NCBI RefSeq assembly: GCF_000334455.1
Contig: NZ_BANX01000011.1
Coordinates: 124,001-188,000 of the forward strand
Reading direction: 5' to 3'
Length of the DNA: 64,000 nucleotides
Origin: Gordonia soli NBRC 108243
GTDB lineage: Bacteria; Actinomycetota; Actinomycetes; Mycobacteriales; Mycobacteriaceae
Position numbers and translations under genes: made by a program. The notes under the pieces are model-generated. The model did no database searches. It was not told the origin of the DNA and saw only the letters and a list, made by a program, of their open reading frames with translations. Every line of letters starts with the position of its first letter. Positions within the stretch are counted from its first letter, which is position 1. This document shows positions 6,622 through 31,152 of this stretch, in pieces.

Positions 6622-7482
6622 GTGAACACTCCCCGGATCAAGGCCGATCTCACCGGGATTCCGGAGACGATGCTGTGGCCGCTGTACTGCCGCGCCGAGG
6701 AATCGCGACGGCCGGATTCCTTTCTCCGTGACCCCGTAATCGACGATCTCTACGCGTCGATCGACTACCCGTTCCATGAGCGATTCGGGGCCCCGCGCAC
6801 CGTCCTCGCGCTACGCGCCCTCACCTTCGACCGGCAGATCGAGACCTTCCTCGCCCGGCACCCGGACGGAACCGTCGTGGCCCTCGGCGACGGGCTGGAG
6901 ACACAGTTCCATCGCGTGGACAACGGCCGCGTCCACTGGGTGTCCGTCGACCTCCCCGAGGCGACCGAGTTGCGCCGACGACTGCTCCCCGGCTCGGATC
7001 GGGCCCGGATCGTCACGTGCTCGGCGCTGGACCGCTCCTGGATGGACGAGATCGACGACTCACGGGGACTTCTCATCACCGCCCTCGGACTGTTCATGTA
7101 CTTGGACGGCACCGCGGTGCTCGACCTCATCACCACCGCCGCCCGTAGGTTCCGCGGGGCGGAGCTGCTCTTCGACGCCGTCCCGCCGTGGCTTGTCCGC
7201 GAGACCGGTGGCGGTACCCGACTGTCGGCGTTGATGATGCGCGGCCGCGCCGACGACGACGCCGACACCAACACCGCCTACCGTCTACCGCCGATGGTCT
7301 GGGGAACCTCGACCACCAGGGTCCGAAAAGCGCTCGCCGACGAGCCCGCCGTCGCCGCGGTCCACGACGTCCCGATGGTCCCCGGACGCGGATTCGTGTT
7401 CCGGCGACTCAACCCGGTCTTCGGGTCGACGGCACCTGTCCGACGCATCCGGCCGAACAACGTGCTCGTCGAGTTCGCCTGA
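6622..7482 (+). CDS. LCM-family SAM-dependent O-methyltransferase
   Basis: Class I SAM-dependent methyltransferase of the leucine carboxyl methyltransferase/COG3315 group ('O-methyltransferase involved in polyketide biosynthesis'), 286 residues. The N-terminal half contains AKD-like family segments and the SAM-binding turn TVVALGDGLETQF, followed by WVSVDLPEA and later LLITALGLFMYL. The start is the GTG at 6622 with AGAGGA 5-6 bases upstream. It is on the plus strand and converges on the lipid-synthase operon, with only 41 bases between the two stops. Methylation of a product of the adjacent Pfa-like synthase is possible but inferred from position; this family is widespread in Mycobacteriales and mostly uncharacterised. 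Confidence 0.8.
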   Translation: MNTPRIKADLTGIPETMLWPLYCRAEESRRPDSFLRDPVIDDLYASIDYPFHERFGAPRTVLALRALTFDRQIETFLARHPDGTVVALGDGLETQFHRVDNGRVHWVSVDLPEATELRRRLLPGSDRARIVTCSALDRSWMDEIDDSRGLLITALGLFMYLDGTAVLDLITTAARRFRGAELLFDAVPPWLVRETGGGTRLSALMMRGRADDDADTNTAYRLPPMVWGTSTTRVRKALADEPAVAAVHDVPMVPGRGFVFRRLNPVFGSTAPVRRIRPNNVLVEFA

Positions 7483-7523: not shown

Positions 7524-9062
7524 TCAGCGGATGGGCTCACCGCCCGGCGCAGACACCGATCCGGTGCTGTCGACGGACTCCGGGTCATCAGGGGTCTCGG
7601 TGCCGCGCACACTCGACACGAAAGTGAAGGCGCTCGGGTCCAACCTGCGCGTGCGGCGACGATAGGCGAACACGGCATCCGGCCAACTACTGGTCACCCG
7701 ACCGTTCGGATGCCGATACCAGCTCGCACACCGCGACAGGACCGACCGCCGCAGCTTCTGCTGCATCTCGTCGTCGAATGCCGTGGCGGCACTCTCGGAG
7801 ACCTCCAGTGCACGTCCGGGCTCACGGCCGATGAGTTCGACTGCCTGTCTGATGTAGCGCGCCTGCGACTCGATCACATAGATCAGGGATCCGGCCGAGA
7901 GGCTCGTGTTGGGACCGACCACCATGAAGAGATTCGGGAAGTTCGGAACCGCCATACCGAGGTAGCCCGTGGCACCTCCACTCGCGTCCCAGACGTCGGC
8001 GAGGGTTCGACCGCCCCGCCCGGTGACGGCTATCGACCACAGGAAGTCGGTCGCGCGGAAGCCGGTCGCGTACACGATCACATCCACCTCGTGGACCGTC
8101 CCGTCCGCCGTGCGCACCCCCTGCGGGACAACGGCGTCGATGGCTTCGGTCACCACCGAGACGTTGTCGCGCCCCAGCGCCGGCAGGTAGGCGTCGGAGA
8201 ACACCACCCGTTTACAGCCGACCTCGTAGTCGGGGGTCACCTTCTCACGCAGTCGGGGGTCGGGAACCTGTCTGCGGAGATGGCGGCGCGACAGCCAGGC
8301 CAGCGGCCGACGGACCGCAGGGACATCGACCAGACCGAGCGATGCCGTGTCCAGCATCGCGAAGAAGAAGAGCCGCTCCCCCAACTGGAACCCCCGGAGG
8401 TACTTGAACGCGGCCTTGCGCCATCGGGGGTACTCGACATCCATCTTGCGGAAGACCCACGGGGCGTGCCGTTGGAAGACGGTCAACTCGCCGACATCCG
8501 GTGCGATCCCCGGGATCAACTGCGCTGCACTCGCTCCGGTGCCGATGACCGCGACCCGGCGATCGGCGATCTCGATGTCGGGGTCCCAGCGGGCCGAGTG
8601 CACCGATGTCCCGTCGAACTCGTCGATCCCGTCGATGGCGGGCATCGCCGGTTGCGACAGCTGCCCGACCGCGCTCACCACGACATCTGCCCGGAACTCT
8701 GCCCCGTCGGCCGTGGTCACCGACCACTGCAGCCCGTGTTCGTCCCAGTTCGCGCTGACGACGTCACTACCGAACCGGATCCGCTCGCGCAGACCGTACC
8801 GCTCGGCGACATCCTGCGCGTATCCAAAGATTTCGTCACGCATGGCGAACCGGAAGGTCCAGTCCGTCTTGGGCGCGAACGAGTACGAGTACAACGGGGA
8901 CGGGGTGTCCACTCCCGCAGCGGGATACGCATTGTCCCGCCAGACTCCCCCCACCTCGGCGGCGCGTTCGAGGATCAGCAGATCGGCCGAGCCGTGTTCG
9001 AGGAGTTCGATCGCGACTCCCATCCCGCCGAAGCCGGCGCCGATGATGATCACCGAGGTCAC
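7524..9062 (-). CDS. Flavin-containing Baeyer-Villiger-type monooxygenase
   Basis: FAD- and NADPH-dependent monooxygenase of 512 residues, a normal length for the BVMO/FMO superfamily. The FAD-binding motif GAGFGG is at residues 8-13, and the second Rossmann motif GTGASA is near 174-179. The BVMO fingerprint FxGxxxHxxxW(P/D) is present as FDGTSVHSARWD at 149-160. Expected chemistry is oxidation of a ketone to an ester or of a heteroatom. The ATG at 9062 overlaps the stop of the upstream oxidoreductase (ATGA), so it is translated as the last gene of the Pfa-like operon. This makes a tailoring role on the lipid product plausible. Confidence 0.87.
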   Translation of the reverse strand: MTSVIIIGAGFGGMGVAIELLEHGSADLLILERAAEVGGVWRDNAYPAAGVDTPSPLYSYSFAPKTDWTFRFAMRDEIFGYAQDVAERYGLRERIRFGSDVVSANWDEHGLQWSVTTADGAEFRADVVVSAVGQLSQPAMPAIDGIDEFDGTSVHSARWDPDIEIADRRVAVIGTGASAAQLIPGIAPDVGELTVFQRHAPWVFRKMDVEYPRWRKAAFKYLRGFQLGERLFFFAMLDTASLGLVDVPAVRRPLAWLSRRHLRRQVPDPRLREKVTPDYEVGCKRVVFSDAYLPALGRDNVSVVTEAIDAVVPQGVRTADGTVHEVDVIVYATGFRATDFLWSIAVTGRGGRTLADVWDASGGATGYLGMAVPNFPNLFMVVGPNTSLSAGSLIYVIESQARYIRQAVELIGREPGRALEVSESAATAFDDEMQQKLRRSVLSRCASWYRHPNGRVTSSWPDAVFAYRRRTRRLDPSAFTFVSSVRGTETPDDPESVDSTGSVSAPGGEPIR

Positions 9063-10879
9063 ACCGCCGACTCCCGCGGATCACCGTCGGCCACACCGGC
9101 GGGAGACGTCGCCGACACCCGCTCGCCGTCGGCCGCACGCTCAGCACGTGCGGTCGTGAAACGCTCGGGCCTCGAACTCAGCCACAGCGGGTCGGCGGTG
9201 TCGCCGATCGGCCGCAATCGGCGGGTGTCGGCCAGCACCACGCCGTTGCGCACCTCGGTGTCGAGGTCGCGGTCCAGGATCGCGCCCGCCGCATGCATAC
9301 CGCTGAGCATCGATCCGGTGACACCCGGGCCCCAGGTGGTGCTGGTGCCGGCCAGGAAGAGCCCTGGGATCGCGGTGCGTACGCCAGGACGGAGCATGCC
9401 CCACTGGCTCACCCGCGGCTCGAGCCCGATCCCCGCGTGGGTGTTGGTGTACCGCTCCTGTGTTGCGGGCGAGGAGCTCTCGGACCAGGCCACCGATGCC
9501 CGCGCCCCCGGGATGGCCCGTTCGACCCGGTCCAACATCCCTTCGGTCAGGATGTCCTTGATCTCCAGGTAGAGCGGGTTCTTGCGGTAGCTGCCGTCGT
9601 CGATGGACTCCTGGTCGAGACCCCACACCGACGGCTCGGGCGGTGCGATCGACAGACTCTCGACCACTCCGCATCCCGGCGGTGCGGTGCGCGTGTTCTC
9701 GGGATCGCGCGTGGTGCCGGAGTGCACCATGCTGATCTGCCGACGCGCGTAGTCGTGCGCCCACTCGAGCGGGTCGCGCCGGTGGGCCTTGGTGACGAGA
9801 TCGGGCAACACCTTCAGCAGGCTGCGGGTGTTCTCGGTGCCATCCCACGACGGCATGACGTAGTAGTTGGTGTTCGGCGACGAGCGGAGGTCCATCTCGA
9901 GTCCGAAGTACGCGGTGAAATAGGGCTGCGACATCTTGTAGCCGCGGATACGGCGGGCCACCCACCAGGGCAGGTGGTCGTAGCCGACGAGGTCCCGATA
10001 GGTCTTCTTGATGTCGATGTCAGAGACCACCACCGCACTGCGGAGCTCTTCACCGTCGTCGGTGCGGACACCGGCGACACGACCGTTCTCGACGAGGATC
10101 TCGCCCACCGTGACGCCGGTCCGGATCTCGCCGCCGTGACTGGTGACGACGTCGGCGAAGGCTGCCGGCATCGCCTGCCCACCCCCCTTGGGAAACCACG
10201 AGCCGCCATCGATGTAGGCGTGCATGTACCCGGCGTGCATCCCGACAGACGCAACGGTCGCTGGGGCGGCATACGCGCCGGAGTACAGCGAGACCAGCAG
10301 CGCGATCCGCGGACTGATGCCGCTTGCACCGATGAGCGCCGCGTGCGGCGCATACATCCACGGCGACTTTCGGCCGACCTTTCGCATGGCCCGGAGCTGA
10401 TTGCGCCGAGACGAGCAGGACACGCTGTGGTCGATGCCGCCACCGATGGCACGTAGCACGCCGAAGTAACGGCGGATCGCCTTCTCCTCGTCGGGGAACT
10501 CCGCGATGAAGTTGTCCATGAGTTGGTCCCAGTCGCACGGGATCTTGATCTCCATGTCGGGAGCTACGACGGTGTCGAATCCGTCCCGATCCATCTCCAC
10601 GAATTCCATGCGGTCCTCGAGGCCGAGGCCGTTGAGCACCCGACTGACCTGTCCCCCTGGCCCGCAGTCGCCGAGATAGTGCACCCCCACGTCGAATTCC
10701 CATCGACCTCGACGGCGGAACACGTGGGACGATCCGCCGATGACGGTGTGCTGCTCCAACACCAGCGTCTTACGACCGGCGGCAGCCAGGTACGCGGCGG
10801 CCGACAACCCGCCGATACCGGCCCCCACCACGATCGCGTCCCACTGGCCGTGCGGCGCATCGGTTCTCGAATCAGACAT
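9059..10879 (-). CDS. Phytoene-desaturase-like FAD oxidoreductase (retinol saturase/CrtISO type)
   Basis: FAD-dependent amine-oxidase-fold protein of 606 residues, longer than typical CrtI (about 500). The dinucleotide-binding motif VVGAGIGGLSAAAYLA is near residues 17-32, followed by EQHTVIGGSSHVFRR, a pattern shared with retinol saturases and carotenoid isomerases. The C-terminal FAD motif PGLFLAGTSTTWGPGVTGSM is present. Relatives reduce, isomerise or desaturate polyene chains, which suits a neighbour of a polyunsaturated-lipid synthase. GGAGG lies about 8 bases upstream of the ATG. The gene follows pfaD after 72 bases and is coupled by ATGA to the BVMO gene. The reaction direction and substrate are not predictable. 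Confidence 0.82.
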   Translation of the reverse strand: MSDSRTDAPHGQWDAIVVGAGIGGLSAAAYLAAAGRKTLVLEQHTVIGGSSHVFRRRGRWEFDVGVHYLGDCGPGGQVSRVLNGLGLEDRMEFVEMDRDGFDTVVAPDMEIKIPCDWDQLMDNFIAEFPDEEKAIRRYFGVLRAIGGGIDHSVSCSSRRNQLRAMRKVGRKSPWMYAPHAALIGASGISPRIALLVSLYSGAYAAPATVASVGMHAGYMHAYIDGGSWFPKGGGQAMPAAFADVVTSHGGEIRTGVTVGEILVENGRVAGVRTDDGEELRSAVVVSDIDIKKTYRDLVGYDHLPWWVARRIRGYKMSQPYFTAYFGLEMDLRSSPNTNYYVMPSWDGTENTRSLLKVLPDLVTKAHRRDPLEWAHDYARRQISMVHSGTTRDPENTRTAPPGCGVVESLSIAPPEPSVWGLDQESIDDGSYRKNPLYLEIKDILTEGMLDRVERAIPGARASVAWSESSSPATQERYTNTHAGIGLEPRVSQWGMLRPGVRTAIPGLFLAGTSTTWGPGVTGSMLSGMHAAGAILDRDLDTEVRNGVVLADTRRLRPIGDTADPLWLSSRPERFTTARAERAADGERVSATSPAGVADGDPRESAV

Positions 10880-10951
10880 GATCTCGTTCCTCCGTTGTCG
10901 ACGTTGCCGTGCGGATCGGCTGGGGATGATGTGGGGTCGGTGACGGCCGGC

Positions 10952-12541
10952 TCATGTCGTCTCCGGTACGAGCAGGTGAGCGCAACCTGCCCTCGGCTGA
11001 AAGGTGCTGATCGACGCCGGGAGTCGGACCCCGTTGGTGCGCAGGTGGTGCACTCTGGTCTGGTATGCAGCGCCGACGATCAGGTTCGCGGCGACGTCCA
11101 CGACACCGCGATCCGAGGGATCGGTGAGGTCGCTGCCGGCCACCCAGTCGTTGAACGCCCCGAGTGCGGGCCCGGCCCACAGTTGGTAGTCGGCGGCGCG
11201 ATCGGAGTCGCCGTCACGCGCCCACCGGGATGACTGGCCGAGGTAGGAACGGAACAGCAGTGCCATGGCGCGCCGGGGCTCGATCTCGCCCGTCGCGTCC
11301 TCGGAGCCGACGCGGGACAGGTATGCCCGGACATCGGCGAAAGCGTCGTCCAGCGAGGTTCGGAACACCTTGTCCTCCAGCCACGCCCGGTCGGCATCGG
11401 AGAGTTCGGTCACCGATCGGTGGGTGTCGTACAGGTGCCGTAGCCGCTGCGCGCGGGACGCGAACATCGTGGACTTCTTGAGAACCTGCACCTGCGCGCC
11501 GATCTCGAACATGTCGGCGGCGGGCGCAAAGGCGAAGTCGGCGATCCCCGCCGACGCGAGCATCTTCTTGGCCGCATCCGAGACACCGGCCTCGCGACAC
11601 ACCTGATTGACCGAGCCGGTGACCACGTAGTCGGCGCCGAGCGCGAACGCGGCAGCCACCGCGGTCGGAGTTCCCAGGCCGCCGGCCGCACCGATGTGGA
11701 TGCCGCCGGCGGGACGGAAATCGCGACGGATCGACTCGCGTTCGGCGACGAAGCGCGGGAGCAGAACCGCGAGCGGACGAGAGTCGGTGTGTCCGCCGGA
11801 GTCTGCCTCGGCGGTGATCTCGTCGGCAACCGGGACCTCGCGGGCGAGCTGCGCCTGCACGGCGGTCACTTGACCTGCGTCGGTCAGCCGACGCAGCAGT
11901 GCGTCAGGAACCGGGCGCGCGAAGACGCGCACGAGTTCGGGTCGGGACACCTTGGCCATCACCCGGTTCTCTGCGACCACCTGACCGTCACGCACCCGCA
12001 GACCGGCGACCCGGTAGCGCGCCAGTGCTGGGGTGATCCCCATGAACGCGGATGCCTCGATCCCACGGACACGTCGGCGCAGCAGCAGGTCGACGAGTTC
12101 GTCCTCGGCATCGGGATCCTGTGGTGAATGCAGGAGATTCATCAGGAACCCTGGTCGGGACGCGGTCTCGCCCAGATCGTCGAGGGCGCGCGCGACGGAA
12201 TCGACCGGCAGACCACCGGATCCGAATGACGCCGACAGCCCCGCATCCGTCATCGATCGGACCAGATCCACCGAGGCGATCCCGCCCGCCATCGCGCCGG
12301 CCAGGTACGGCGCGCGCAGACCCCCACGATCGACGAATGCCGTCGAGCCGAGTGCTGTCGGCGGGCACGCAGACGCGGCCGCTGCGACTTCCCAACCGGG
12401 TGACCCGGGCTCGGCGGACAACCCGACGCCGTCCGTGCCCTCGACGACGTAGACGGGTTCGTGTAGCTGCTCCAGGATCGCGCGCATCCCGGTCGCGCGG
12501 GTCTGCACACCGTCGACTTTTCGCTCGGCCGCGACCGTCAT
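10952..12541 (-). CDS. pfaD: PfaD-like trans-acting enoyl reductase of a PUFA-type synthase
   Basis: FMN-dependent 2-nitropropane-dioxygenase/FabK-like TIM barrel, 529 residues. PfaD and its relatives supply enoyl reduction in trans to PUFA-type and some trans-AT synthases. Diagnostic stretches are HIGAAGGLGTPTAVAAAFAL with GADYVVTGSVNQ at about 282-312, the segment FEIGAQVQVLKKSTMFASRA at about 345-364, and the terminal YQLWAGPALGAFNDW. The ATG at 12541 overlaps the previous stop as ATGA and is preceded by AGGAGGT, so a longer in-frame reading to 12727 is rejected. The third gene of the pfa operon is exactly where pfaD is expected. Confidence 0.92.
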   Translation of the reverse strand: MTVAAERKVDGVQTRATGMRAILEQLHEPVYVVEGTDGVGLSAEPGSPGWEVAAAASACPPTALGSTAFVDRGGLRAPYLAGAMAGGIASVDLVRSMTDAGLSASFGSGGLPVDSVARALDDLGETASRPGFLMNLLHSPQDPDAEDELVDLLLRRRVRGIEASAFMGITPALARYRVAGLRVRDGQVVAENRVMAKVSRPELVRVFARPVPDALLRRLTDAGQVTAVQAQLAREVPVADEITAEADSGGHTDSRPLAVLLPRFVAERESIRRDFRPAGGIHIGAAGGLGTPTAVAAAFALGADYVVTGSVNQVCREAGVSDAAKKMLASAGIADFAFAPAADMFEIGAQVQVLKKSTMFASRAQRLRHLYDTHRSVTELSDADRAWLEDKVFRTSLDDAFADVRAYLSRVGSEDATGEIEPRRAMALLFRSYLGQSSRWARDGDSDRAADYQLWAGPALGAFNDWVAGSDLTDPSDRGVVDVAANLIVGAAYQTRVHHLRTNGVRLPASISTFQPRAGCAHLLVPETT

Positions 12542-15500
12542 CGGACCTCCTCGGTGCGGATGACCTCGACCGCGAGGTCGGTGAAGTGGTAGATCCGTAC
12601 CCCCGGCTTGAAGAGGCTGGCGTCGGCGGTGACAACGAGTCCCCGGTCGGTGGTCCGGACGTCGGTCACGTCGATCTCGAATCCCAGTTCCGCGTCGGTG
12701 CGGAGGATCTGCCCCCGGTACTTCCACGAGAACGGCACATCGACCGGGAGACCGAACCGCACCGGTCCCAGCGAATCCGCGACGCCCGAGGCGATGATGT
12801 AACTCTGCAGCCCCTGGGTCACGGCTTCGACCCCGAGCGACCCCGGCATCACCGGGTCGTTGTGGAAATGGCAGTCGAAGTACCAGTCGGCGGGGTCGAT
12901 GACCCGGGTGGCCTTGACGTATCCCTTACCGGACCGGCCGCCGTCGACGACGATCTGCGCCGAGTCGATCAAGCGGAAGTGTCCGGTGCCGATGCACAGA
13001 CCGTTGTTCGCATCCGGGTCGAACCAGGCGTGTTCGTCGCGGAAGTCGACCTCGACAACGGAATCCCTTGTGCTGGTGGCGCCGTCGGTGTCGATCCAGT
13101 ACGGGACATCAGCGCCGCCGTCGAGTCCGACATCCGACGACAATGCTTCGTGGGTGAAGTATCCGAACAGCGATTCACCCTCGTAGAAGGGCACCCCGTC
13201 GGCGTCCATCCGGTAGGCGAAGCGTTGCAGGATCTGGCCTGCCACCATCGTCGTGGACAACAGCGTGGACTCCTGCCGCAGCACTGCACCCCGGACGTCG
13301 AGATCCGCCACCACGGTGGCGGTCCCGTCCAGGTTGCGGATGGAGAGGCGCTGATCCCGCGGGACGTGCAGGGTGGTGCCGAGCGCTGAACCGGTCAGCG
13401 CAGCTGCCTGCAGGGAGGCCTCCATGATCATCGACCCGGGGATGCCCTCGAACGAGTTGTCGTCGTGGTACCAGGACTCGGTGGCGACGTCGTACTCCGA
13501 GATCATCGTGCCGCTGCGCAATTTCTCGCGATCGCCGACCACCGAGATGACCCGATCGACGAACCGGAACTCGCCGTTGGGGATGTGGAGTTCGGTCTTG
13601 CCGTCGTACTCGGCCACCGCGACGCCGAGCGCGATGTCGACCTCACCGTTCTCGAGGTGCGACATGTGGAACTCGTTGAGGGCAGCCACCTCTCCGTTGC
13701 GTCCGCGACGGCCCAGCGGAGCGGGCCGACCGTCGGTGTCGAACTCCGGGCGATACCTGCTACCCGGCCGTTCGCGGACCTCGATCGCGAGATCGACGAT
13801 GGTCGTGACGAGTTCGTCGCCCGCGTACACGTGGACATCGCCCACGATCGTCGGGCGCGGGATCATCGTGATGTCGGTGACCTCGATCCGATGCCGGATC
13901 GGACCGTCGGCGACGACCCGCGGCCGAGCGGACGCCACCCGGGTGATGACGTCGGGCGCCGCTCCGAACTCGCCGTCGAAGAACACCAGGTGCAGGCCGA
14001 GATACACCGCATAGATCCGTAGTGCCTCGGCGGCTGCGTCCACGAGATCGACGACGCCGGCATCCGCTGTCCCGGGTTTCGTCTGCTCGGGAGACTGCTC
14101 GGGGATGGGGTGTTCGAGCGGCATCTGGTCGGCGAGCAGATGCCCCAGTCGGAACTCACCACCGGACGGGTCGATGCTGGGAACCGCGCGTATCCGACGA
14201 CCCGACACGGCTGTACGGATGCCCGTCGTCACACCGGCGTCGCGCTGGTCCCAGCGGTCCCCGAAGACGGCGACGGAGTCGCCGACGACCAGTTGACCGA
14301 CCTGGGTGTCGCCGAGTTCACGCAGGCGCGTGTACTCCAGCGGCTTGAATCCCTTTCGTCGCTCCACACGAGACGATCGGGTGCGCGGTGCGATCGGCGT
14401 GAGTGCAGTGCGGGGTCGGACCGTGCCCCAGCTGCCCTCACCCGCACCGATTCCGAACACCGGTTCGCCACCGATCCGGAGTTCGGTACGGAACCTGAAC
14501 TCGCCGCCGCTGGGGCCGGGGTCGATTCCCGAGATGGCGATCTCGATCTGTGCCGATCCGATCCCCTCTGCCGATCGCGCGGAGTCGATGTGGCGATGTG
14601 TGATCTCGAGTGCGTGGACCTGCGGCGCGGCGTTGCGGTAACGCGGGTCGCCGGCGAGCAGGTCGGTCGCGAGCTCCCGCACCAGACCCGTGCTCGACGC
14701 GAGGGCCGTCGTCGCATCGAGGTCTGCGGCGGTGACCGGGAGGTCGACCGTCACGATGAACCCGTCCGCCGTCGGGGTGACCGTGGTCGTGTCGCGCGCA
14801 GCCGGCCCGGGTGCGCTGACATCAGATGATGCGGTCGTGATCGCTGTGCGCCCATGCGCTGCCGTCTCGTGTACTGCGGTCTCGTGTACTGCCGTCTCGT
14901 GCACTGCGGTCTCGTGTACCGCTGTGGAGTCCGTTGCGGCCGGATCTCGCACCGACTCGTCGGTGGACATGGCCGGTTGCTCCTGTGTCGCAACAGCAGC
15001 CGGCAGATCCCCCGACTCCAGGGCCGCCAGCGCCGCGCCCTGCAACGCCGACTGCGTCTCCAGAACCGCGATATGGGTTCGGGCCACATCCTGCGCGATG
15101 GCGGCGACATGACTGCACACGTCGCGCTCTGACGGAACCGGCTGCGTGTCTACCTGATTCGATGTGGCTTCATGATTCGACGAGGTCAGTCCATTCTCGT
15201 CGCGGCTGCCGGTCTCCGGCGTCACGGGTCGGGCGACGGGTGTGTCGGCAGTCCCACTCGGGGCGGTGCTGACGCCGGCAGGCCCGGTCGGCACGGGACC
15301 GGACCGTGCGGGGGTCGTCTCCGCGATGCTGCCGCGCGTGGAGTGGGACTGGCCGGAGATGACCGCCGACGGGGATCGGCGCTCGACGATGATCACGTCA
15401 TCGTCATCGACGCCGGGCGAGCCGTCATGGGTGACGTCACGCGCAGTGGCACCATCGATCTCGAGCTCACGCACGAGGTCGTCGTCGGATGTCGCGGACG

Positions 15501-17862: not shown

Positions 17863-20800
17863 GTGTTCTCCCCCGCGAAGAGTGCGTTGAGCGCTTCGGA
17901 CATCACGGCCTCGAAACCGCTGACGACCTGCAGGACCTCACCGCTCGAGTCGTAGCTGGTCAACGTCCCGACGACGACGTTCTCCGACGTCTGACCGAAT
18001 CCGCTGGCCACCACGAAGAACGGCTCGTCGTACGGCAGGCGCCGGAAGATGTCCACGCGCGCCACCGCGGCGGGCATCGGCGACTTCCCGTACTTGTGCC
18101 GTATCCACGGCGCGACGACCTGCCCCACGACATCGCCCAGATTGGAGTCGTAGAGCCCGACCTCGTACGCGCCGTCGGCCACCGGTGGTGTCCCCAGCCG
18201 ACATTCGGCCACGAGCTGGTCGTCGTCGTGGGTGACGATGCGGCGGACACCCTGCAGTGCCGGACCATGGAAGAGAACCCTGGTCGCGTAGGCGTCGGTC
18301 GGGTCGGCGGCCCCGACCACCGGCAGCGGCGACAGTGGCGGTGGCGGTGCGATCCGCTCGGCATCGGGCCGGATGGTGGCGCGGAACCGCGGTCGCCCGT
18401 TCTCGTCCGTGGCCAGGATCGTGCGGGATGATCCGTCGTCGACGAACCGGATCGTCGTGGTGAGTCGCTCGGGTTCGGTGCCGTCGCGGACCACGCCCTG
18501 AGCACGCGGAAGTCGGTGATGAGGTGACTGTCCTCGCCGGTGACGCGCCGAGCCATGTTCATCAGCCCGCCCATCGCCCACGCCGCCGGGATGACGGCCT
18601 GACCGACCAGTGCGTGATCGTCGATGACCGGGTCGGCGTAGACCGGCGCCATGGACCGTACGAGCTGCACACTCTCGGTTCGCACCGGGACCGTTGTGCG
18701 GTCCACCAGCGGTGTCCGCGGTCCGACCAACTCGATGCTCGTCCCGGCGGCGCGGGTGAAGATGTCGACGAATGCCGCTACGCCGTCGGCGATCTCGACC
18801 ATCTCGACGCCGCGGTCCCGGAAGACGGCGGCCAACTCCGGGCGTACCATCCCGCCGTTCCAGGGGCCCCAGTTCACGACGGTGACCTGGGCTTCGGGTG
18901 AACGCCGCCCTAGCCACACACCGATCCTGCTGATCGCCTCGTTGCCGGTCGCGTAGTCGGATTGTCCTGGATTGCCGTGGAATCCGGCCACCGACCCGAA
19001 CAGGGCCACCTGTCGGAGCGTCGCGATGTCGACGACGGCGAGCACGTTCAACAGAGAGGTGACCTTGACGTCGAGTACCCGCCGGACATCGGTCGCCGAC
19101 TTGTCGACCAGGAGTTTGTCCCGGATCGCACCGGCGCCGTGGACGACTCCGGTGATGCGGTCGGCCAGCGGACCGAGCTTTTCGGCGGTTGCCGCAGCGT
19201 CGGTCAGGTCGATCTGCAGGTAGCGCACCGACGATCCGGTGGCCGACACCGCCGCGACCGTCGCGGCGATCTCCCGGCTCGCGGTGACACTCGTGGCCGC
19301 CGCCGCGATCTGACCGGGCGACGGCCGATCACCCCCCGACGTGAGGTGATCGGCCGCCGCGCGGCGCAGATCGCCGTCGGCGACCCTTACTGCCCACTCG
19401 GGCTCGTCGTGCTGCGCACTGCTGCCGACGAGCAGGAACTCCGCGTCGGTGTGGTTCGCGAGTGCGCGGACGCAGGCCGCGGTGATCCCGCGTGCACCGC
19501 CGGTGACGAGGACGACGTCGTCGGCGCCGAGGCGAACGGACCGAGCCCGTGTGGGATCGCCCAATTCGATCGGCGGCCCCGCGACCCGACCGACCCGACG
19601 CCCGCTGACGTCGACGCCGACCTCGGAGTACCAGGTGTCGGAGTCGTAGAGCTCGGCGAGCAGTGCGGCACCGGCGGTCTCGTCGTCGAGATCGCGGCCG
19701 AGGTCCACCGAACGCGTGAAGACGGCATCGGCTTCGTGGCCCGCTGTCTTGACCAGGCCGGCGACCCCGGACGCGATCGCCTCGGCCAGGGTCGGATCGG
19801 TGACGCCGGTGGTTCCGTCGCCCCGGCTGACGGTGAACAGCGCCGTGCGCGCACCGTCCGCGTGCATCGCGAGGCGATCGATCACGCTGCCGGCGAACAG
19901 GATCGCCTCGGCGAGGTGGCCGACCACCCGCCCGTCATCTCCCTCGGACCGAGCCGGGATCACCCACAGGGCCAGGTCGATCCGGCTGTCGGTGACCGGT
20001 GATGTCGCATCCCGGACATCCCAGCCTCGATCCCGGAGTGCATCCAGGAAGCCGAGCGGTAGTTCGTCGGTCGCTCCACCGACGATGGCGATCGGGTCGG
20101 CACGAAACGGTGCGACCAGTGCGTCGATGGCGGGTAGCGCGATCGTCTCGATCTCCCGACGGACGATCGCACCCCCGCCCTCAGCTTTTGGGTCCGTGCT
20201 CACCCCGCCGTCCATGCTCGCCACGGCCGCGTCATCCCCGGCGGGCACCACGAGCTTGACGATGTAGTCGACGATGTCCTGCAGCGTCGACAGCGAGAAC
20301 ACCTCTTCCGGCGGAGGTGGCGGGATGTCGGGGAACCGTTCTTGGAGCGAACTCAGGATCTCGACCCGCTTGATGGAGTCGATGCCGAGATCGGCTTCCA
20401 TCGTCATCTCGAGATCGAGCATGTCGGTCGGGTAACCGGTCTTGTCGGCGATGGTCTCCAGCATCAGCGTCGCCACCGATGCCGGATCAGTGAGTGCCGC
20501 ATCGGTCTTCGGTTGCTCGGCTGGTGCTTCGGTTGCCGGCGAAGACGTCGCGGTCGGCGACCCGGTCCCGTTGTTCTGAGGCGGGTGTTGAGAACCGTTG
20601 AGCGATGTGGTGTCTGCGGCATGTCCGTTGGTGTCCGCGAATCCGTTCGTCGCCCCGTTCGTCCCGGTTCCGTTCGCCTCAGCGCCGTTGGTCACAGCGC
20701 CGTTGGTCACAGCGCCATTGGTCACGCCGTTCGTCGCGACCCCGTTCGGCACAGCACCGTTCGGCACGGTCCCGTTCGTCCCGGCCCCGTTGCTCGTCGG

Positions 20801-23800
20801 CTGACCGACGGGAGCGTCCACCTCGTGGAAACCGTTGAGCTGCCGACCGTGGTCGATTCCAGCGCCGTTCGTGTGCGGCAGGTCCGTCCGGTACGACGTG
20901 GACGGGAGGGCCCGGGAAGCGTTACGCACCGGAGTGCTCCGAATGCGTTCCGCCGGACCGACCTCGACACCGGCCTCCAGTTCGGCGAAGCTCCGCAACA
21001 CGCCGCTGGCGTGGATGTGGGATTCGCTGATGGCCGTCGACTGCCGCACCACCGCGTCGATGCCGTCGATCAGTTCCGGCCGGATGGTCTGCCCGGCCTC
21101 GGCACTGAGCAGCCCACTGACCCGGTCGGCGATGGAGAGCTGGCTGGCGAGGTAGGCACGATGCATCGTCAGGTGCTCACCGGCGAGATCCCAGATGGAC
21201 GTGCTGCCCACCGGTGTCGTGGCCTGCGGTGTCGTGGCATGCGGGGTCCCTGCGTGCGGGGTCTGGGCCGCCGCGGGCGCCGATCGTGGATCCGGGCTCG
21301 GATCGGGTTCGCCGACGGTGCCGTTCACCGTCGATTCGTCGTGAAGGGTCACGCTGCTCTGCCTTTCGATTCGATATCCGTTGTCCATCTCCTCGCGGAA
21401 CGCTCGACGCCGCTCCTCGGACACGTACTCACTGCCGGTGAGCGTGATCGATCCCCTGGCCGGCTCGCCGGCCGCGGGCCGGGCGGGGGCGACGCCGCGG
21501 TTGAGGTCGCGCAGGGGCAGTCCGAGCACAGTGAGTCGGGCGATCGTGTCGACCGCGTGACGCTCTCCGTCGACCGACGGTCCACCGTCGATCGCCAGTG
21601 CGATCACGTCGGCGCGGTCGCCGAGGGTCTTGCGGACCAACTCGGTCAGCGTCGATTTCGGGCCGAACTCGACGAAGACGCGGAATCCGTCGTCGTACAT
21701 CTCGACCAGTCGATCGGCGAACACCACCGGGGCGGTCATCTGACCGGCGAGCACGTCGCGGTTGGCCGCCACGTCGCTGCCGTAGGAGCGATCCGCTGTG
21801 TCGGCGAACACCGGGATCGAGGGTTCGGGGATCTGGGCGTCGCCGAGTGCGGTGCGGAAGGACTCGACGGCATGCGCGACCAGCGGCGTGTGGAACGCTG
21901 CCGCCACCGGCAGGGCGCGGGCCCCGACTCCCTCGGAACCGCATCGCTCGACAAACGCCGTGATCGCCTCCGTCGCACCACCGACCACCACTTGTTCGGG
22001 GGCGTTCACGTTGCAGACCCACAGGTCCGCGTACTCGGCGATCAGGTCGTCGACCACCGCTCGTGATGCGGTGACAGCCGCCATCGCACCCGGGTCGGCG
22101 CTGTCTGCCGGTCGATCTGCCATCGCGGCACCGCGGGCGATCGTGATCGAACGGAAGGTCTCGTCGTCGAGGCTCCCGGCCGCCCACAGCGCGGTGATCT
22201 CGCCGTAGCTGTGGCCGAGGGCACCGTCGGGGGTGAAGCCGATCGAGCGGAGGTGATCGAACTGCCCCTGCGCCAGTGCTCCGATCGCGGGTTGGGCGAA
22301 CTCGGTGGCCCGCAGGGCCTTCTCCTGCGCGGCGGCATCAGCCGGCGTGAACGCCGACGGCGGGTAGACGGTCGAGCCGAAGTCCCCGGACTCGAATCGT
22401 TCGGCCATCGCGTCGAGTGCGTCGGCGATCCGCGGGAATGCCGTGGCCGCACCGGAACCCATGTTGGCGTACTGGCTGCCCTGCCCGGCGAACAGCGCGG
22501 CGACCTTGCCGTCGACGATCCCGCGCTCACGGTAGTGGACCCCGGCGGGCAGTTCACCGCCGAGCCGGATGTGGTCGATCGCAGCCGCTCGCAGCGCATC
22601 CAGGTCGGTACGTCGGTCGGCGACGATGGCCAGGCGTGCGTCGGCCGCCGGGATGGTGTCGACAGTTGCCCGACGCATCGGGTCACCCTCGATCTCGGCG
22701 ATGAGGCCATCTGGCGTCGGCGCGTGCCAGAGGTATGTGACGAGCGTTCGGTGCGACGGGCGTTCGGCCCCCCGGGCCAGGGGCGGCTCCTCGAGCACGC
22801 AGTGGAAGTTGGTGCCGCCGAAACCGAACGACGACACCCCGGCACGCCGAACGCCTGTCCGCGGATCTGACACCCACGGCCGGGTCGAAGCGTTGGGGTA
22901 CAGCGGAGAATCCGCGAATCCCATCGCCGCCTTGGGCGAGTTCACGTTGAGGGTCGGCGGGAGGATCCGCTGCTGCAGAGCCAACGCAGCCTTGATGACG
23001 CCCGCGGCACCTGCCGCCGACTTGGTGTGGCCGATCTGCGATTTCACACTGCCGATAGCGATCGATCCACGCTCGAGATCGTGCGCGTCGAAGACCTCGT
23101 TCAGCGCCGAGATCTCGACGTGGTCGCCGACCGCCGTACCGGTGCCGTGACATTCGAGGAGTCGCACGGTGTCCGGCGAGACCCGTGCCGTCGAGTAGGC
23201 CCGCTCGAGAGCGGTCACCTGCCCTTCGGCGCGGGGCGCGTAGATGCTCTTGAAGCGGCCGTCACTCGACGACCCGATCCCCTTGATCGTCGCGTAGATC
23301 CGGTCGCCGTCACGCTCGGCATCGGCGAGTCGCTTGAGACCCACCATGCCGATGCCCTGACCAATGAGGGTCCCGTCCGCGTCCTCGTCGAACGGTCGGA
23401 TGTCGTCGTTCACCGACAGCGCCGGGGTCTTGGAGAAGCACACGTACATCGTCGGACTGTTCTCGAGGTCGCAGCCGCCGGCGATCATGAAGTCCGCCCG
23501 CCCCAACGAGAGCTCCGCGATCGCCACGTTGATCGCCGCGAGCGAACTGGCGCACGCGGCGTCGGTGGTGCAGTTGAGGGCGCCCAGGTCGAATCGGTTC
23601 GCGATCCGACCCGCGACCACGTTGCCGAGGATGCCGGGAAACGAGTTCTCCTGCCAGGGCGCGTACGCCGACTTGTACTTCTCGGCGATGGCCTCCGACT
23701 CCGCCTGACCGAGCCCGCTGCTGCGCAACACCTCGACCAGGACCGGGGCCTGCATCCGCGACATCATGTCCCGCACCAGCGCATTGGCGCCCGAGGTTCC

Positions 23801-24235
23801 CAACACCACACCGGCGCGGGAACGGTCGAAGTCCGGATCATCGAAGCATCCCGAGTCCTCGAGCGTCTGCTTGGCGATGACCAGGCTCAGCAGCTGGAGA
23901 ACGCTGGTGGCCTCGACGGTCTTCGGCGGGATGCCGTACTCGAGCGGATTGAAGACCACCGGCGGGATGAACCCCCCGCGTTTTGAGTACGTCTTGTCCT
24001 CTGCCCGCGGGTCCGGATCGAAGTGGTCTTCGATGCGCCACTCGTGTTCGGGCACATCGGTGATGCAGTCGGCCTTGGACAGGATGTTGTCCCAGTACTC
24101 GTCGACGTTTGCCGCATCGGGGAACAGGGCGCCGATGCCGACGATCGCGACCGGGACATCGCCGGCAGGCCGAAGAACCTCCGGCGCTGGTTCGGCGCCC
24201 TCGAGGTGCGCGTTCGGGGCGGTGTCTGCGGTCAT
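17859..24235 (-). CDS. pfaA: PfaA-like iterative type I synthase KS-AT-ACP-KR-DH, with an apparent frameshift
   Basis: Core subunit of a PUFA-type (secondary lipid) synthase, about 2125 residues once a one-base deletion is repaired. Domain order: KS at about 27-487 (Cys228 in TTDAACAS, His363 in ECHGTGTAVGD, His403 in GHTKSAAG); AT at about 580-880 (GHSYGE, Ser676; AAFHTP, a malonyl-type signature); one ACP (GIDSIKR, Ser1287); KR at about 1570-1800 (VTGGARG, Ser1748, Tyr1761); PKS-type DH from about 1865 (His1874). At 18496-18498 a run of three C (GGG in the gene) appears to have lost one base. Before it the frame reads sensible DH sequence, and after it only the neighbouring frame does, ending at 17859 in an ATGA overlap with the next gene. 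Unrepaired, the chain would end at 17960 with about 177 nonsense residues. GAGGA lies about 7 bases upstream of the start. Only one ACP is seen, where most PUFA synthases have several. Confidence 0.9.
20682..20726 (-). repeat. 15-bp tandem repeat in the Asn-Gly-rich linker of the PfaA-like protein
   Basis: Three consecutive 15-base units at 20682-20726 encode repeated (A/V)TNGA-type peptides. They sit in an Asn/Gly-rich, probably disordered linker just upstream of the single ACP domain (residues about 1140-1215). Confidence 0.75.
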
Positions 24236-24651
24236 GGGCGTGTCCTCACCGTCGTCTGGGCAGCCGACATCACGAGAGTCGGCGCATCATGGGATCGTCG
24301 CGCAGGCGCGCCGTACAATAATCGATCGTCGGAAAGCATTGATACATCGAGCGTTCGGGGTCCGCGGGCTCCGGCAGAGCGCATCTGCACGACGGCTGTC
24401 CGAGGCCCGGTCCCGTGGACACCCGTGAACGCGATCGTCGCTGCCGGGAACCGGACCGGAGGCGCACACAGAGCGCGGAGACGACGTGATCGTGATCCAG
24501 TCAACAACCGAACCGTACAGATGTCAAGGACCATCAGATGCCTCGCTCCCGTCGAATAGTGCTGTACATCAACTGTTTTCAGGCAGCCTTGATCGACGCC
24601 GGTCGATGCGGTTACCGGTCGATTACCGTGTGTTCTCGCTGCGGCGCCGGC
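24236..24651. promoter_or_regulatory. 416-bp spacer between mmpL and pfaA; probable pfa promoter region
   Basis: No convincing gene is present. The region is less GC-biased than the flanking genes. It holds one copy of CGGTTACCG (24609-24617), also seen twice upstream of the methyltransferase, and TGTACA-like motifs. The sequence just upstream of pfaA contains a TATTGT hexamer on the minus strand (about 24315), but no good -35 partner. Because mmpL reads in the same direction, pfaA could be transcribed from here or by read-through. Confidence 0.4.
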
Positions 24652-27600
24652 TCAGGGGGACGCCCTCTCCTCGGCGGTCGACACGGATGATGTCGAGGAC
24701 TCTGTCGATGCCCGGGCCGGACCGGCCTGCGCCGGCTCGCCCGGTGCTGGGTCACCAGGTCCGCCCGACCCGTCGGCCGCCTCTCCGCGTCCGGGTATCG
24801 CGGCCTCGTCCGGCGGTCGGCTCGGCCACCAGTTCCAGCGGCCGAGCAACGCGGCCAGCGAGGGAATGGTCAACGTGCGCACGATCATCGCGTCGATGAG
24901 CAGCCCGACCGCGATGGTGAAACCGATCTGGCCGACGTTGGTGACCGACGAGATGAGCAGCGCCATCATCGTTATCGCGAAGATGACCGCGGCCACCGTG
25001 ATCACTCCTCCGGTCCCGGTGACTGCTCGGATGACGGCGGCACGGGTACCGCCGCCCGGATGATCGCGCGCCTCCTCCCGGACCCGGGACATCAGCAACA
25101 GGTTGTAATCCGCGCCGACCGCAGCGAGGGCGATGAACGACATCGACGGCACCGCCCAGTGCAGCGGGATGTGCAGGAGGTGTTGCCAGAGGAGCACACT
25201 GACGCCGATCGCGGCGAGATAGGACAGGATGACCGAAGCCAGGATGTAGGCCGGGATCACGATGCTGCGCAACATGAACGCGAGGATCACCACGATCAGG
25301 ATGCTGGCGGTGAGGGCGATGAGCAACAGGTCCCGGAATGCGAAGTCGCCGAGCTCGAAGTACATGATGGAAGGTCCGGTCAGTGCTGTACGCGCAGCCG
25401 GAAGTCCACTGTCGTCCGCGGCCTGCTGTGCGACCGTCCGGATCTGTTGCGCCTGCTGATCGGCCTTCTCACTGAAGGCGTCGCCGGTGGTGACGATCTG
25501 CATGCGCGCCGACTTGCCGTCCGGTGCGATGAAGAGCGAGATCGCCGGTGCCAGGCGGGGCGAGGCGAGCGCGGAAGCGGGCAGGTAGAAGCCTCCGCCT
25601 TCGGTGGGCGAACCGGCGTTGTCACGCAACTCCCCGAGGTAGTCGGCCGCCTGCCGTAGCCCGCGCTGCATGTCGGTGACCCCGGATGTCAGCTGCGTGA
25701 CACCACCGGCCAACGGTCCGACGCCGTCGGCGAGTCGTCGTGCGCCGGTGCGCGCAGCCACCGCGCCGTCGTCGAGGGTCACCAGACCGGAGTTCAGCGC
25801 GACCTGACCGTTGCGGAGCTGGCGCGCGCCCTCCACGGCGCGGTTCATCTCGGTGGTGAGCGTCGTCAGCCCGGATTGCAGGCGTGCGTTGCCCTCGGCG
25901 AGTTGGTCGACGCCGCTGCGCAACTGCTCGACGTCGCCGACGGGCGACCGCTCCACGGCGACGAGCAGGGTCCGCGCTGCGCTGCACATCGGGTTGGTGG
26001 CGCACTGCGGGTCGGCATCCACCAGGCCACGGAGTGACCGGACGGCGTCGGTTGCCGGGAGCAGCGGAGCGGTCGCGTCGTCCGCCCGACGCTTGAGGAG
26101 CGCCGCCCCTCGACCTACCTGCCGGGATCCCTCGGCGAGCTGGTCCGCGCCGTCGGACAGCCGGGTCAGACCGGTCGAGAGCTGCTCGCTGCCGTCGACG
26201 AGGCGTTGCGAGCCATTCCGCGCCGCACGCGTCCCGGTGGCAAGGCGGTCGGTGCCGTCACGGAGTTGCCTGCTGCCGTCGACCACCTTAGTCATACCCG
26301 AGCCCAGTTGGCGGACCTGCGGATCGGACCGGGCGAGCTGCACCACTGCGGCGTCGAGGCGGTCGCCGACGACCCCGGCCTGGTATCCGACTGCCGCCTC
26401 GGTCAGCGGACGACCCATCGGTCGCGTCACCCCGCGGACCGACTCGACACCGTCGACGCCGGCGACTGCAGCCGAGATCCGCTCCAGGGATGCGAATCCG
26501 GCGGACGTGCGCAGATCGGCGTCGGATCGGACCAGCATGGTAATGGGCAGGAGTTCGTTGGCCCCGAAGGACTGTGCCGCGAGCTGGTATCCACGGTTGC
26601 TGTCGGTGTCGTCACCGATGGTCGACCGCTCGTCGTAGGCGATGACGATGGTCGGCACGATCAGCGCGAGGATCACGAGCAGTACCAACGATCCGGCGAG
26701 CGTCCGGACCGGGCGCTTGACCGCGGCGTTCGCGACGCCGCGCCACCAGTCGGTGGCCGAGTGCGGTCGCGGCTCCGCCCAACCACGCTCGGAGACCAGG
26801 GCGAGTGTCGCCGGTGTCAGGGTGACCGCTGCCGCGGCGACGACCAGGATGCCGACCGCACAGGGCAATCCGATCGACCGGAACATGCCGATCTCTGCGA
26901 CACTCATCGACGCCGACGTCACGGCGACCACGAGTGCGGAGGCCAGTATCACCGTCGAGATGCGGGAACAGGCCGAGACCATCGCCGCGCGGTCGTCGAG
27001 GCCCGCTCTGCGTTCCTCGTGGTAGCGGCTGATCAGGAAGATCGCGTAGTCGGTGCCGGCACCCAGGATCAACGCGGCGAGCAGCGCCAGCGAGAAGATC
27101 GAGATCGGGCTGCCGTGCAAACCCATCAGCGCCACCACCGGGCGGGCGACACCGAGGCCCAGGCCGATGGTCAACAGCGGGACCGCGGCCACGGCGATCG
27201 ACCGATAGACCGCGAACAGGAGGAGTGCGATCAACAGCACCGTCACGCCGGTGATGAGCTGCAGTGATGTGTGCACGCCGTCGAGTTCGTCGGCGACCGT
27301 CGCGCCGAGACCCGCCACCTCGGCCTCGAGGCCCGGCGGTCGGGGCACGGCCGTCAGATCCGACCGGATCGAGGAGATCGCATTGGTCGCCGCGGTCGCA
27401 CCGGTGTCGGCCGACAGCCGGATCATCGTGTACGCGGTCGTCCCGTCCGGACTGACCGCCGAGGCAGCCGTGTCGGGGTTCGACCAGAGGTTCTGCACGG
27501 CCGCGACATGCTCGCGATCGGCGCCGACCTCGGCCAAGACCGCGTCGTGGTACCGACGATCCTGATCGGTGAGACCGGTGCCACGGCGGACCACCAGATA

Positions 27601-27813
27601 GGCGAGCCCGTTGGCGGACGGCTCGTGGAACTGCTCGCCGAGTTCGGCCAGGACTTTCATGCCCTGGGCATCGGCCGGCACCATCGGCGTCGAGCGTTCC
27701 GTCGCAACGGTTTCCAGCTGCGGGACCAGGAGGTTGAGTGCGCCCGCGACGCCGAGCCAGAGGAGTACGACGACCACGCGCCAGCGGAGTACGAACTCCC
27801 CGAATCTCTTCAC
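24652..27813 (-). CDS. MmpL-family RND lipid transporter
   Basis: Inner-membrane RND protein of about 1053 residues with two MMPL halves, each with a six-helix cluster. Proton-relay Asp-Tyr pairs are seen as GAGTDYAIFL (first half) and VGADYNLLLMS (second half), as in mycobacterial MmpL proteins. The large loop between the halves holds many LxxGxxxL-type repeats (LRDGTDRLATG, LSDGADQLAEG and similar), predicted to form a long helical periplasmic domain. The C-terminal tail of about 60 residues is Pro/Gly/Ser-rich. The GTG at 27813 is preferred because GGAGG lies 7 bases upstream. MmpL proteins commonly export lipids made by neighbouring polyketide or fatty-acid synthases. Its position directly upstream of pfaA suggests it exports that product; this is inference. 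Confidence 0.88.
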   Translation of the reverse strand: MKRFGEFVLRWRVVVVLLWLGVAGALNLLVPQLETVATERSTPMVPADAQGMKVLAELGEQFHEPSANGLAYLVVRRGTGLTDQDRRYHDAVLAEVGADREHVAAVQNLWSNPDTAASAVSPDGTTAYTMIRLSADTGATAATNAISSIRSDLTAVPRPPGLEAEVAGLGATVADELDGVHTSLQLITGVTVLLIALLLFAVYRSIAVAAVPLLTIGLGLGVARPVVALMGLHGSPISIFSLALLAALILGAGTDYAIFLISRYHEERRAGLDDRAAMVSACSRISTVILASALVVAVTSASMSVAEIGMFRSIGLPCAVGILVVAAAAVTLTPATLALVSERGWAEPRPHSATDWWRGVANAAVKRPVRTLAGSLVLLVILALIVPTIVIAYDERSTIGDDTDSNRGYQLAAQSFGANELLPITMLVRSDADLRTSAGFASLERISAAVAGVDGVESVRGVTRPMGRPLTEAAVGYQAGVVGDRLDAAVVQLARSDPQVRQLGSGMTKVVDGSRQLRDGTDRLATGTRAARNGSQRLVDGSEQLSTGLTRLSDGADQLAEGSRQVGRGAALLKRRADDATAPLLPATDAVRSLRGLVDADPQCATNPMCSAARTLLVAVERSPVGDVEQLRSGVDQLAEGNARLQSGLTTLTTEMNRAVEGARQLRNGQVALNSGLVTLDDGAVAARTGARRLADGVGPLAGGVTQLTSGVTDMQRGLRQAADYLGELRDNAGSPTEGGGFYLPASALASPRLAPAISLFIAPDGKSARMQIVTTGDAFSEKADQQAQQIRTVAQQAADDSGLPAARTALTGPSIMYFELGDFAFRDLLLIALTASILIVVILAFMLRSIVIPAYILASVILSYLAAIGVSVLLWQHLLHIPLHWAVPSMSFIALAAVGADYNLLLMSRVREEARDHPGGGTRAAVIRAVTGTGGVITVAAVIFAITMMALLISSVTNVGQIGFTIAVGLLIDAMIVRTLTIPSLAALLGRWNWWPSRPPDEAAIPGRGEAADGSGGPGDPAPGEPAQAGPARASTESSTSSVSTAEERASP

Positions 27814-29478: not shown

Positions 29479-30179
29479 CCGAGATAGCCGAGGACATCAT
29501 CGTCGAGGACACCCGCGTCCTCCTCGTCGACGACCAGGAGCTGGTCCGGTCCGGACTGCGGAAGATCCTGCGCCCCAAGGACGGATTCACCATCGTCGGC
29601 GAATGCTCCGATGGCGGCGAGGTGGTGGATGCGGTGGTCGCCCACCAGCCGCATGTCGTCGTGATGGATCTGCGGATGCGCCGCGTCGACGGCATCGAGG
29701 CGACCCGACGACTGCAAGAACTCCCGGCGCCACCACGGGTCCTTGCGCTCACCACCTTCAACGACGACCAGTTGTTGTCGGGTGCGTTGCGCGCCGGTGC
29801 AGCCGGATTCATCCTCAAGGACTCGTCGGCCGAATCCCTGGTCCGCGCAGTGCATTCGGTCGCCCGTGACGGCGCGTGTCTCGATCCGGCGATCACCGCG
29901 CGGGTGCTGCGCGACTACCGCGGATCGTCGAGCCGCGCGGCCGACCGGCGTGTCGAGGACATCCTGACCTCGCGCGAGTACGACGTCCTCGCCCTCATCG
30001 GCCGTGGATCGTCCAACTCCGAGATTGCCGACCGCCTGGACATCTCGAACGTGACCGTGAAGAGCCACATCCGACACATCTTCGACAAGCTCGGTCTGCG
30101 TGACCGGGCGGCGGCAATCGTGTTCGCCTTCGACCGGGGCATCGTGGTTCCCGAGCGCCGGGAGGAGTCGCCGTATTAG
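29475..30179 (+). CDS. NarL/FixJ-family response regulator
   Basis: Response regulator of 234 residues: receiver domain with acidic pair Asp19-Asp20 and phosphoacceptor Asp65 (VVMDLRM), Thr/Lys switch residues in LALTTF and GFILKDSS, and a C-terminal LuxR-type HTH (LTSREYDVLALIGRGSSNSE, then VTVKSHIRHIFDKLG). The ATG at 29475 overlaps the kinase stop (ATGA), which makes these two a cognate pair. DNA targets are unknown. The kinase-mmpL spacer has repeated GGTCC boxes at 27868, 27883 and 27901 that could be tested as sites. Confidence 0.92.
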   Translation: MTEIAEDIIVEDTRVLLVDDQELVRSGLRKILRPKDGFTIVGECSDGGEVVDAVVAHQPHVVVMDLRMRRVDGIEATRRLQELPAPPRVLALTTFNDDQLLSGALRAGAAGFILKDSSAESLVRAVHSVARDGACLDPAITARVLRDYRGSSSRAADRRVEDILTSREYDVLALIGRGSSNSEIADRLDISNVTVKSHIRHIFDKLGLRDRAAAIVFAFDRGIVVPERREESPY

Positions 30180-31090: not shown

Positions 31091-31152
31091 CCGGTCGGCT
31101 CAGCGTCGCCGGGTCGCCTCCGGCGGAGTCGGCGCGGGTTAGGCTGATCCGC

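Follow-up and report, generated by a model that had tools for sequence, protein, structure and literature searches.

The marine Pfa synthases for eicosapentaenoic and docosahexaenoic acid (EPA/DHA), Types A and B in PMC3098273, combine a PfaA protein in which ketosynthase (KS), malonyl-type acyltransferase (MAT), acyl carrier protein (ACP) and ketoreductase (KR) domains follow in that order with a PfaB-type acyltransferase (AT), a pair of FabA-like dehydratase (DH) domains and PfaD. A locus sharing these elements was analysed in Gordonia soli NBRC 108243, within a stretch of 64,000 nucleotides of contig NZ_BANX01000011.1 (positions 124,001 to 188,000; hereafter, the window) from a 5.38 Mb draft genome in 60 contigs. 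In comparison to the marine types it lacks the KS-chain length factor (KS-CLF) of PfaC, has one ACP against four to six, carries PfaB fused to the DH pair and adds tailoring and export genes. We consider, with a probability of roughly 0.7, that the locus represents a Pfa-type 'secondary lipid' synthase in reduced form, accompanied by tailoring genes of its own.

In PMC12895367, PfaB is described as a KS'-AT terminal acyltransferase bearing GYSMG where MATs bear GHSxG (section 2.6), and the final condensations are credited to the KS-CLF of PfaC (section 3.7). CLF phylogeny is credited with polyketide chain length in PMC13291983. PMC3098273 defines 20 cluster types and accepts clusters with a single ACP where domain content and KS tree agree.

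Domain content of the synthase genes

Six genes occupy the minus strand between 27,813 and 7,524, in the order mmpL (24652..27813), pfaA (17859..24235, in two frames), pfaB/C (12538..17862), pfaD (10952..12541), an oxidoreductase gene (9059..10879) and a gene for a type I Baeyer-Villiger-type flavin monooxygenase (BVMO; 7524..9062). An earlier note on this DNA had described ATGA overlaps joining the three pfa-like genes, coupling of the oxidoreductase and BVMO genes, and an MmpL gene upstream in the same direction, and each of these was found. The pfaA and pfaB/C genes share ATGA at 17859–17862, an overlap that holds only with a change of frame in pfaA near 18,500; pfaB/C and pfaD share ATGA at 12538–12541, and the oxidoreductase and BVMO genes share GTGA at 9059–9062. 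The mmpL gene, in the same direction, is separated from pfaA by 416 bp; its start at 27813 agrees with the end given in that note, and a longer start is possible at 27861.

PfaA scores 1394.9 bits on TIGR02813 (NCBIfam cut-off 1010.1) and PfaD 543 bits on TIGR02814 (cut-off 449.25). The Pfam domain order in PfaA is KS, AT, ACP, KR, with the ACP preceding the KR, and the motifs are intact, including the KS Cys/His/His set (DAACASS, ECHGTGT, GHTKSAAG), the MAT motif GHSYG and those of the KR. The ACP count is one, by both the single PP-binding stretch matched by Pfam and the single LGIDSI, and tblastn over the initial 32 kb of the window found one KS of at least 250 amino acids. At the level of sequence, PfaA is shown to comprise single KS, malonyl-type AT, ACP and KR domains ahead of a C-terminal DH, and PfaD to be the enoyl reductase.

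The pfaB/C gene encodes a fused KS'-AT-DH-DH protein. Its score on TIGR02816 (83.1 bits) lies below the cut-off of 144.3, but the AT motif reads GYSLG, two FabA-like DH stretches are matched by PF07977, and the crystal structure of PfaB (9ry8) is matched in sequence by phmmer. The same structure was the best fold match, first among 997 chains aligned, for a model covering residues 1–830 (mean pLDDT 61.5), with a Z-score of 32.6 and an rmsd (root-mean-square deviation) of 3.3 over 513 residues within model residues 163–788. No KS domain was found in PfaB/C by Pfam or tblastn. Alignment to KS-CLF-AT-DH-DH relatives of 2,349 (G465), 2,399 (G574) and 2,243 residues (G132, Antrihabitans cavernicola) starts mainly at the second half of the CLF. 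PfaB/C is a PfaB-type AT behind a decayed KS', followed by two FabA-like domains, with the KS-CLF of PfaC absent.

Phylogeny, distribution and related clusters

In a KS tree of 56 rows, the window KS pairs with that of G200, another genome of the family (support 100/100), inside a 17-row actinobacterial PfaA clade (99/99). This joins (89/89) a 13-row clade of cyanobacterial HglE, the marine EPA/DHA PfaA and others, and the window KS lies within a 45-row PfaA clade (99/97), outside which falls the KS of the genome's own Pks13. The earlier note's identification of a Pfa-type synthase, for which it had proposed a KS phylogeny as a check, is borne out by this placement and by the scores of PfaA and PfaD on their domain models; the outcome which that note had named as refuting, a KS grouped with ordinary modular or mycobacterial Pks genes, did not occur. 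After G200, the nearest rows by path are from Streptomyces and Catenulispora. The Antrihabitans KS, which accompanies a KS-CLF, is sister (98/91) to five rows lacking it (100/100), which come from the three-gene clusters common in the family, and this group joins three Streptomyces rows (98/97); since the window pair lies outside, the KS-CLF was lost at least two times if the tree is right.

Family searches covered 401 genomes, with three candidates scored per genome, so that weaker extra copies could be missed; the family and order samples have genomes in common, and both were drawn from larger groups. PfaD is matched in 54 of the 401 at E <= 2e-50, the window's own genome included and three of them over fewer than 280 residues, in 75 at E <= 0.001, and within the genus in 5 of 59 genomes, although a PfaD match alone is no proof of a Pfa cluster. 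Published clusters also exist. PMC4035055 reports a pfaA cluster in Nocardia with a polyunsaturated fatty acid (PUFA) as predicted product, PUFA being previously unfound in that genus; Rhodococcus erythropolis PR4 is Type Q in section 7 of PMC3098273, and hybrid clusters with PUFA-synthase-like genes in mycobacteria appear in PMC13291983. The suggestion in the earlier note that such a lipid had not been described for this group was therefore too wide.

What is rare is the combination. The oxidoreductase is matched in 23 of the 401 genomes at E <= 1e-60, and six hold both it and PfaD (G031, G132, G200, G272, G320 and the window's own genome, G000); the two genes are adjacent only in the last and G200, and lie on different contigs in the other four. 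Order-wide, at E <= 1e-130, the oxidoreductase was matched in 3 of 397 genomes, namely the window's, G272 (47%) and, as a new hit, G474 (45%). All 37 genomes of the genus of G200 have a BVMO match (E <= 1e-60).

Gene content was compared at 31 loci, the window and those of 30 genomes, of which 20 were covered over 20 kb (about 3 kb past pfaD) and ten up to 40 kb, G004 ending at a contig edge. At 22 loci a single KS was accompanied by PfaD and a match to the DH pair, with no PfaB AT above 50 bits, whereas one KS with a PfaB AT was confined to the window and G200. Three loci have two or three KS (G132, G278, G033), two have PfaD with no nearby KS (G398, G310), G315 has KS and PfaD with no DH match, and G004 has KS and PfaD as far as its contig end allows. 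AT matches of 46–57 bits (G330, G305, G315, G004) and 63–85 bits (G278, G033) were taken as probable cross-hits of other ATs. In the stretches seen, the oxidoreductase, BVMO or methyltransferase recurred in G200 only, of the 30. The PfaD-like genes of G398 and G310 (L235 and L236) stand in 20 kb with no KS or DH match.

The common three-gene clusters of the family resemble the window in having PfaA, a DH-pair protein and PfaD with one KS and no KS-CLF, but they have no PfaB AT and have other neighbours (in G031, an AMP ligase and an FAD monooxygenase). Nocardia cluster #11, for which PMC4035055 gives two ACPs, is possibly of this type. The actinobacterial fused-pfaBC clusters of G574, G591, G606 and G465, four members of the order, combine the PfaB AT and DH pair in one protein adjoining pfaD, as in the window, but keep the KS-CLF (frames of 2349–2559 residues, with KS, CLF, AT and two DH domains matched by Pfam in that order in the two tested). 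In G606 and G574 pfaA occupies two frames, and each of the four has acyl-CoA-dehydrogenase-like genes after pfaD. In a KS-CLF-AT-DH2 cluster of another family (L203 11,391–14,953) two such genes come after pfaD, and in L199, L201 and L202 pfaD is followed by a similar gene. The fused-pfaBC group takes in Streptomyces, Kutzneria and Catenulispora loci too and may be compared with Type H as outlined in PMC3098273. The window does not fit that type, defined by split pfaA and fused pfaBC, in that pfaA of G200 is one frame and the split in the window is a late frameshift rather than a gene split.

For Ottowia thiooxydans, PMC13291983 mentions a fused pfaBC homologue that reportedly has no KS-CLF, so KS-CLF loss as such is not new; there, however, pfaD is fused to pfaA, and the Ottowia and Streptomyces clade V genes belong to hybrids of polyketide synthase (PKS) and non-ribosomal peptide synthetase, unlike the window. 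Search listings of open-licence PMC papers showed no report of the present gene combination. Three features are apparently new: the KS'-AT-DH-DH subunit, present at 2 of 31 loci, a second apparent loss of the KS-CLF and this tailoring set. The pfaA frameshift, missing KS-CLF, single ACP, methyltransferase, divergent two-component system and rarity of the locus are points beyond the earlier note.

In the Antrihabitans cluster (L044 183–1,688 and beyond) the tailoring set is a different one, pfaD having P450 genes and a KAS III-like gene in its vicinity. Ole-type hydrocarbon genes were considered there and rejected, as the genes tested beyond the KAS III-like gene are P450s and a reductase. For the window, a plasmid origin was likewise rejected, the best plasmid matches being 42% (oxidoreductase) and about 50% (PfaD), and a scan of viral contigs gave no match.

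A conserved unit with putative tailoring, export and regulatory genes

G200 retains the unit with 934/1491 identical residues in PfaB/C, 352/518 in PfaD, 472/573 in the oxidoreductase (82%) and 356/486 in the BVMO (73%). For the oxidoreductase the next best homologue in the family sample reaches 51%, and for the BVMO those in the genus of G200 reach 45–46%. A possible independent oxidoreductase-BVMO module was tried and rejected: 16 loci of oxidoreductase homologues (14–26 kb) gave no pfa match, and the BVMO matches at three of them (L161, L163 and a 50-residue edge match in L152) were nowhere adjacent. L152 carries two tandem copies of a CrtI-type oxidoreductase at 9,372–12,868, with no pfa genes.

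Two further elements belong, as judged from their recurrence in G200, to the conserved unit. The first is a methyltransferase dependent on S-adenosylmethionine, of LCM/TIGR00027 type (6622..7482, plus strand; PF04072 25.8 bits, cut-off 22.3; TIGR00027 24.4, below 93.55). Its G200 counterpart (198/283 identical, 70%) is co-directional, downstream of the BVMO gene with a 4-base overlap, whereas in the window it is inverted and convergent. The second is a two-component system divergent from mmpL, consisting of a HisKA_3-type sensor histidine kinase (28111..29478, plus strand; PF07730 52.1 bits) and a NarL/MadR-like response regulator (29475..30179, plus strand; family models below cut-offs) whose genes overlap by 4 bases. 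In G200 the kinase (239/409 identical) occupies the corresponding divergent position, adjoined by the regulator (159/226). SARP-type (BTAD) and MarR-type regulators at 30,266–31,656, outside the two-component genes, are not matched in the stretch of G200.

The oxidoreductase is an FAD enzyme of the CrtI/CrtISO family (PF01593). The earlier note had called it retinol-saturase-like; the matching models are those of carotenoid isomerase (TIGR02730, 146.8 bits, cut-off 586.9) and phytoene desaturase (TIGR02734, 125.9 bits, cut-off 238.1), both below cut-off, and no retinol saturase model is among the family matches listed. Its best solved chain is 4dgk, a phytoene dehydrogenase. The BVMO carries FDGTSVHSARWD, fitting FxGxxxHxxxW(P/D), the fingerprint of type I BVMOs, together with two Rossmann motifs; its best solved matches are cyclohexanone, steroid and phenylacetone monooxygenases.

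The transporter is of the MmpL family of RND (resistance-nodulation-division) proteins (PF03176 520 bits; TIGR00833 714.2 bits, cut-off 874.7 not reached). Trehalose polyphleate and other mycobacterial MmpL lipid clusters likewise place a lipid synthase beside MmpL, but with modular-type PKS genes. In G200, an internal deletion has left a remnant of mmpL upstream of pfaA (L035 9,144–9,566). As the remnant is at the same place, the gene was probably present in the common ancestor and lost in G200, which implies that G200 either does without export by this MmpL or has a pathway that is failing too.

Proposed pathway and competing explanations

Enzyme roles follow from family membership, and we infer the substrate that each would meet. 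Because the KS-CLF to which the final EPA/DHA condensations are credited is absent, the single PfaA KS would run all elongation cycles iteratively, and the chain would probably be shorter than EPA/DHA or differ from them in its unsaturation. The PfaB-type AT would off-load the acyl chain, the CrtI-type flavoenzyme may alter its double bonds, the BVMO could insert oxygen, the methyltransferase could cap a carboxyl or hydroxyl, and MmpL would carry the lipid to the envelope, with the divergent two-component system governing expression. The earlier note had suggested an exported, oxidised lipid. In its favour, the CrtI flavoenzyme and BVMO recur at the same places in G200, and MmpL as a remnant, whereas export and oxidation themselves are what we infer. 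The full proposal is less likely than not: a minimal one-KS, one-ACP Pfa machine that lost the KS-CLF independently of the three-gene type would make an undescribed polyene. After isomerisation or saturation, oxygenation by the BVMO and O-methylation, this would be exported and form an envelope lipid or a secreted lipid of a mycolic-acid actinobacterium.

Several observations weigh against a functional synthase with its own tailoring genes. The oxidoreductase, methyltransferase and BVMO fall below the cut-offs of all named enzyme models among the matches listed, and the methyltransferase is on the strand opposite to the pfa genes. A shared transcript for mmpL and pfaA is not shown, given the gap between them, and the G200 MmpL remnant is a 119-residue frame in which an N-terminal part is joined to residues near 824–885. 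Within PfaB/C, the DPVMPG motif is present in the second FabA-like domain only, and model residues 1–170 have no confident fold (pLDDT blocks 22–37). No release enzyme besides the PfaB-type AT was seen, and Pfam scans of window genes gave no phosphopantetheinyl transferase, such as the PfaE type of canonical EPA/DHA synthases, the genome not being searched for it. In the KS tree, the deepest branchings of the 17-row clade have no fixed order, and long branches, including the Pks13 and PfaC rows, were flagged by the program. A further point is the pfaA frameshift. The final part of the main open reading frame (ORF; 17960–24235) is not PfaA, and the C-terminus lies in another frame (ORF 17859–18917, whose residues 208–347 match the end of TIGR02813); from the start codon to the stop of the shifted frame there are 6,377 bases, no multiple of three. 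Comparison with G200 gives a one-base length difference near 18,500 (about 18,480–18,520), within the C-terminal DH between HxxxGxxxxP (residue 1874) and a later D-x3-Q, which we take to be its catalytic motifs. The shift would remove most of this DH and may impair the pathway in the strain unless it is a sequencing error.

That it is such an error, in sequencing or assembly, with the cluster intact, has about an even chance of being correct. The G200 pfaA is a single open frame of 2,071 residues, intact at the site, and the window protein past the shift is 145/210 identical to it, comparable to three earlier segments (663/884, 212/361 and 321/540). The C-terminus has thus not decayed, and the shift is either very recent or an error; a one-base difference in a 60-contig draft and the preserved ATGA overlap of pfaB/C with the shifted frame fit the latter. 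Programmed frameshifting is unsupported, as G200 reads one frame and the stretch read has no long slippery run. The shift would, alternatively, be a symptom of decay in a patchily spread pathway whose function is being lost in each of the two known carriers, with no product in the window strain. The internal deletion of mmpL in G200, the inversion of the methyltransferase gene between the two and the patchy presence speak for this, but the remaining genes are full open frames, the two genomes are broken at different genes and the sequence past the shift is as conserved as the rest, so that we regard general decay as unlikely, while giving it some weight.

An ordinary Pfa synthase for EPA/DHA-like membrane PUFA, with the flavoenzymes as bystanders, would account for the TIGR02813 and TIGR02814 scores above cut-off. 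It is improbable in the absence of the KS-CLF and tandem ACPs, and bystanders would hardly be expected beside the pfa genes in G200 as well, at identities well above those of the next oxidoreductase and BVMO homologues. Least credible is a modular or mycobacterial-type PKS (Pks13, Pks2 or mycocerosic-like) misread as Pfa. The Pks13 and Pks2 models do match PfaA, far below their cut-offs, but PfaA scores only 373.4 bits on the Pks13 model, a relation reversed for the genome's own Pks13 (281.9 on TIGR02813 against 2734.9 on the Pks13 model, cut-off 2100). The ACP before the KR and the KS tree, in which the own Pks13 is placed apart, though on a flagged long branch, point the same way, and a Pks13-like or modular identity was ruled out on model scores and tree. 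As Pks13 exceeds its cut-off, the genome points to a mycolic-acid bacterium. PF00109 has 14 matches in it: Pks13, pfaA, a ketoacyl synthase (KAS) of 421 amino acids, a 3149-residue frame of the size of FAS-I, a KAS-like frame of 496 residues and nine weaker ones.

The locus is a real and rare variant of a kind already known. It poses a clear biological question, though its value is limited by the frameshift and by a product predicted from sequence. The two apparently independent losses of the KS-CLF in one family, with PfaB kept in one case and absent in the other, are natural experiments on the roles of the KS-CLF and PfaB. Discovery of a product would, in addition, give mycolic-acid bacteria a new exported lipid and reveal a new route by which Pfa chains are tailored.

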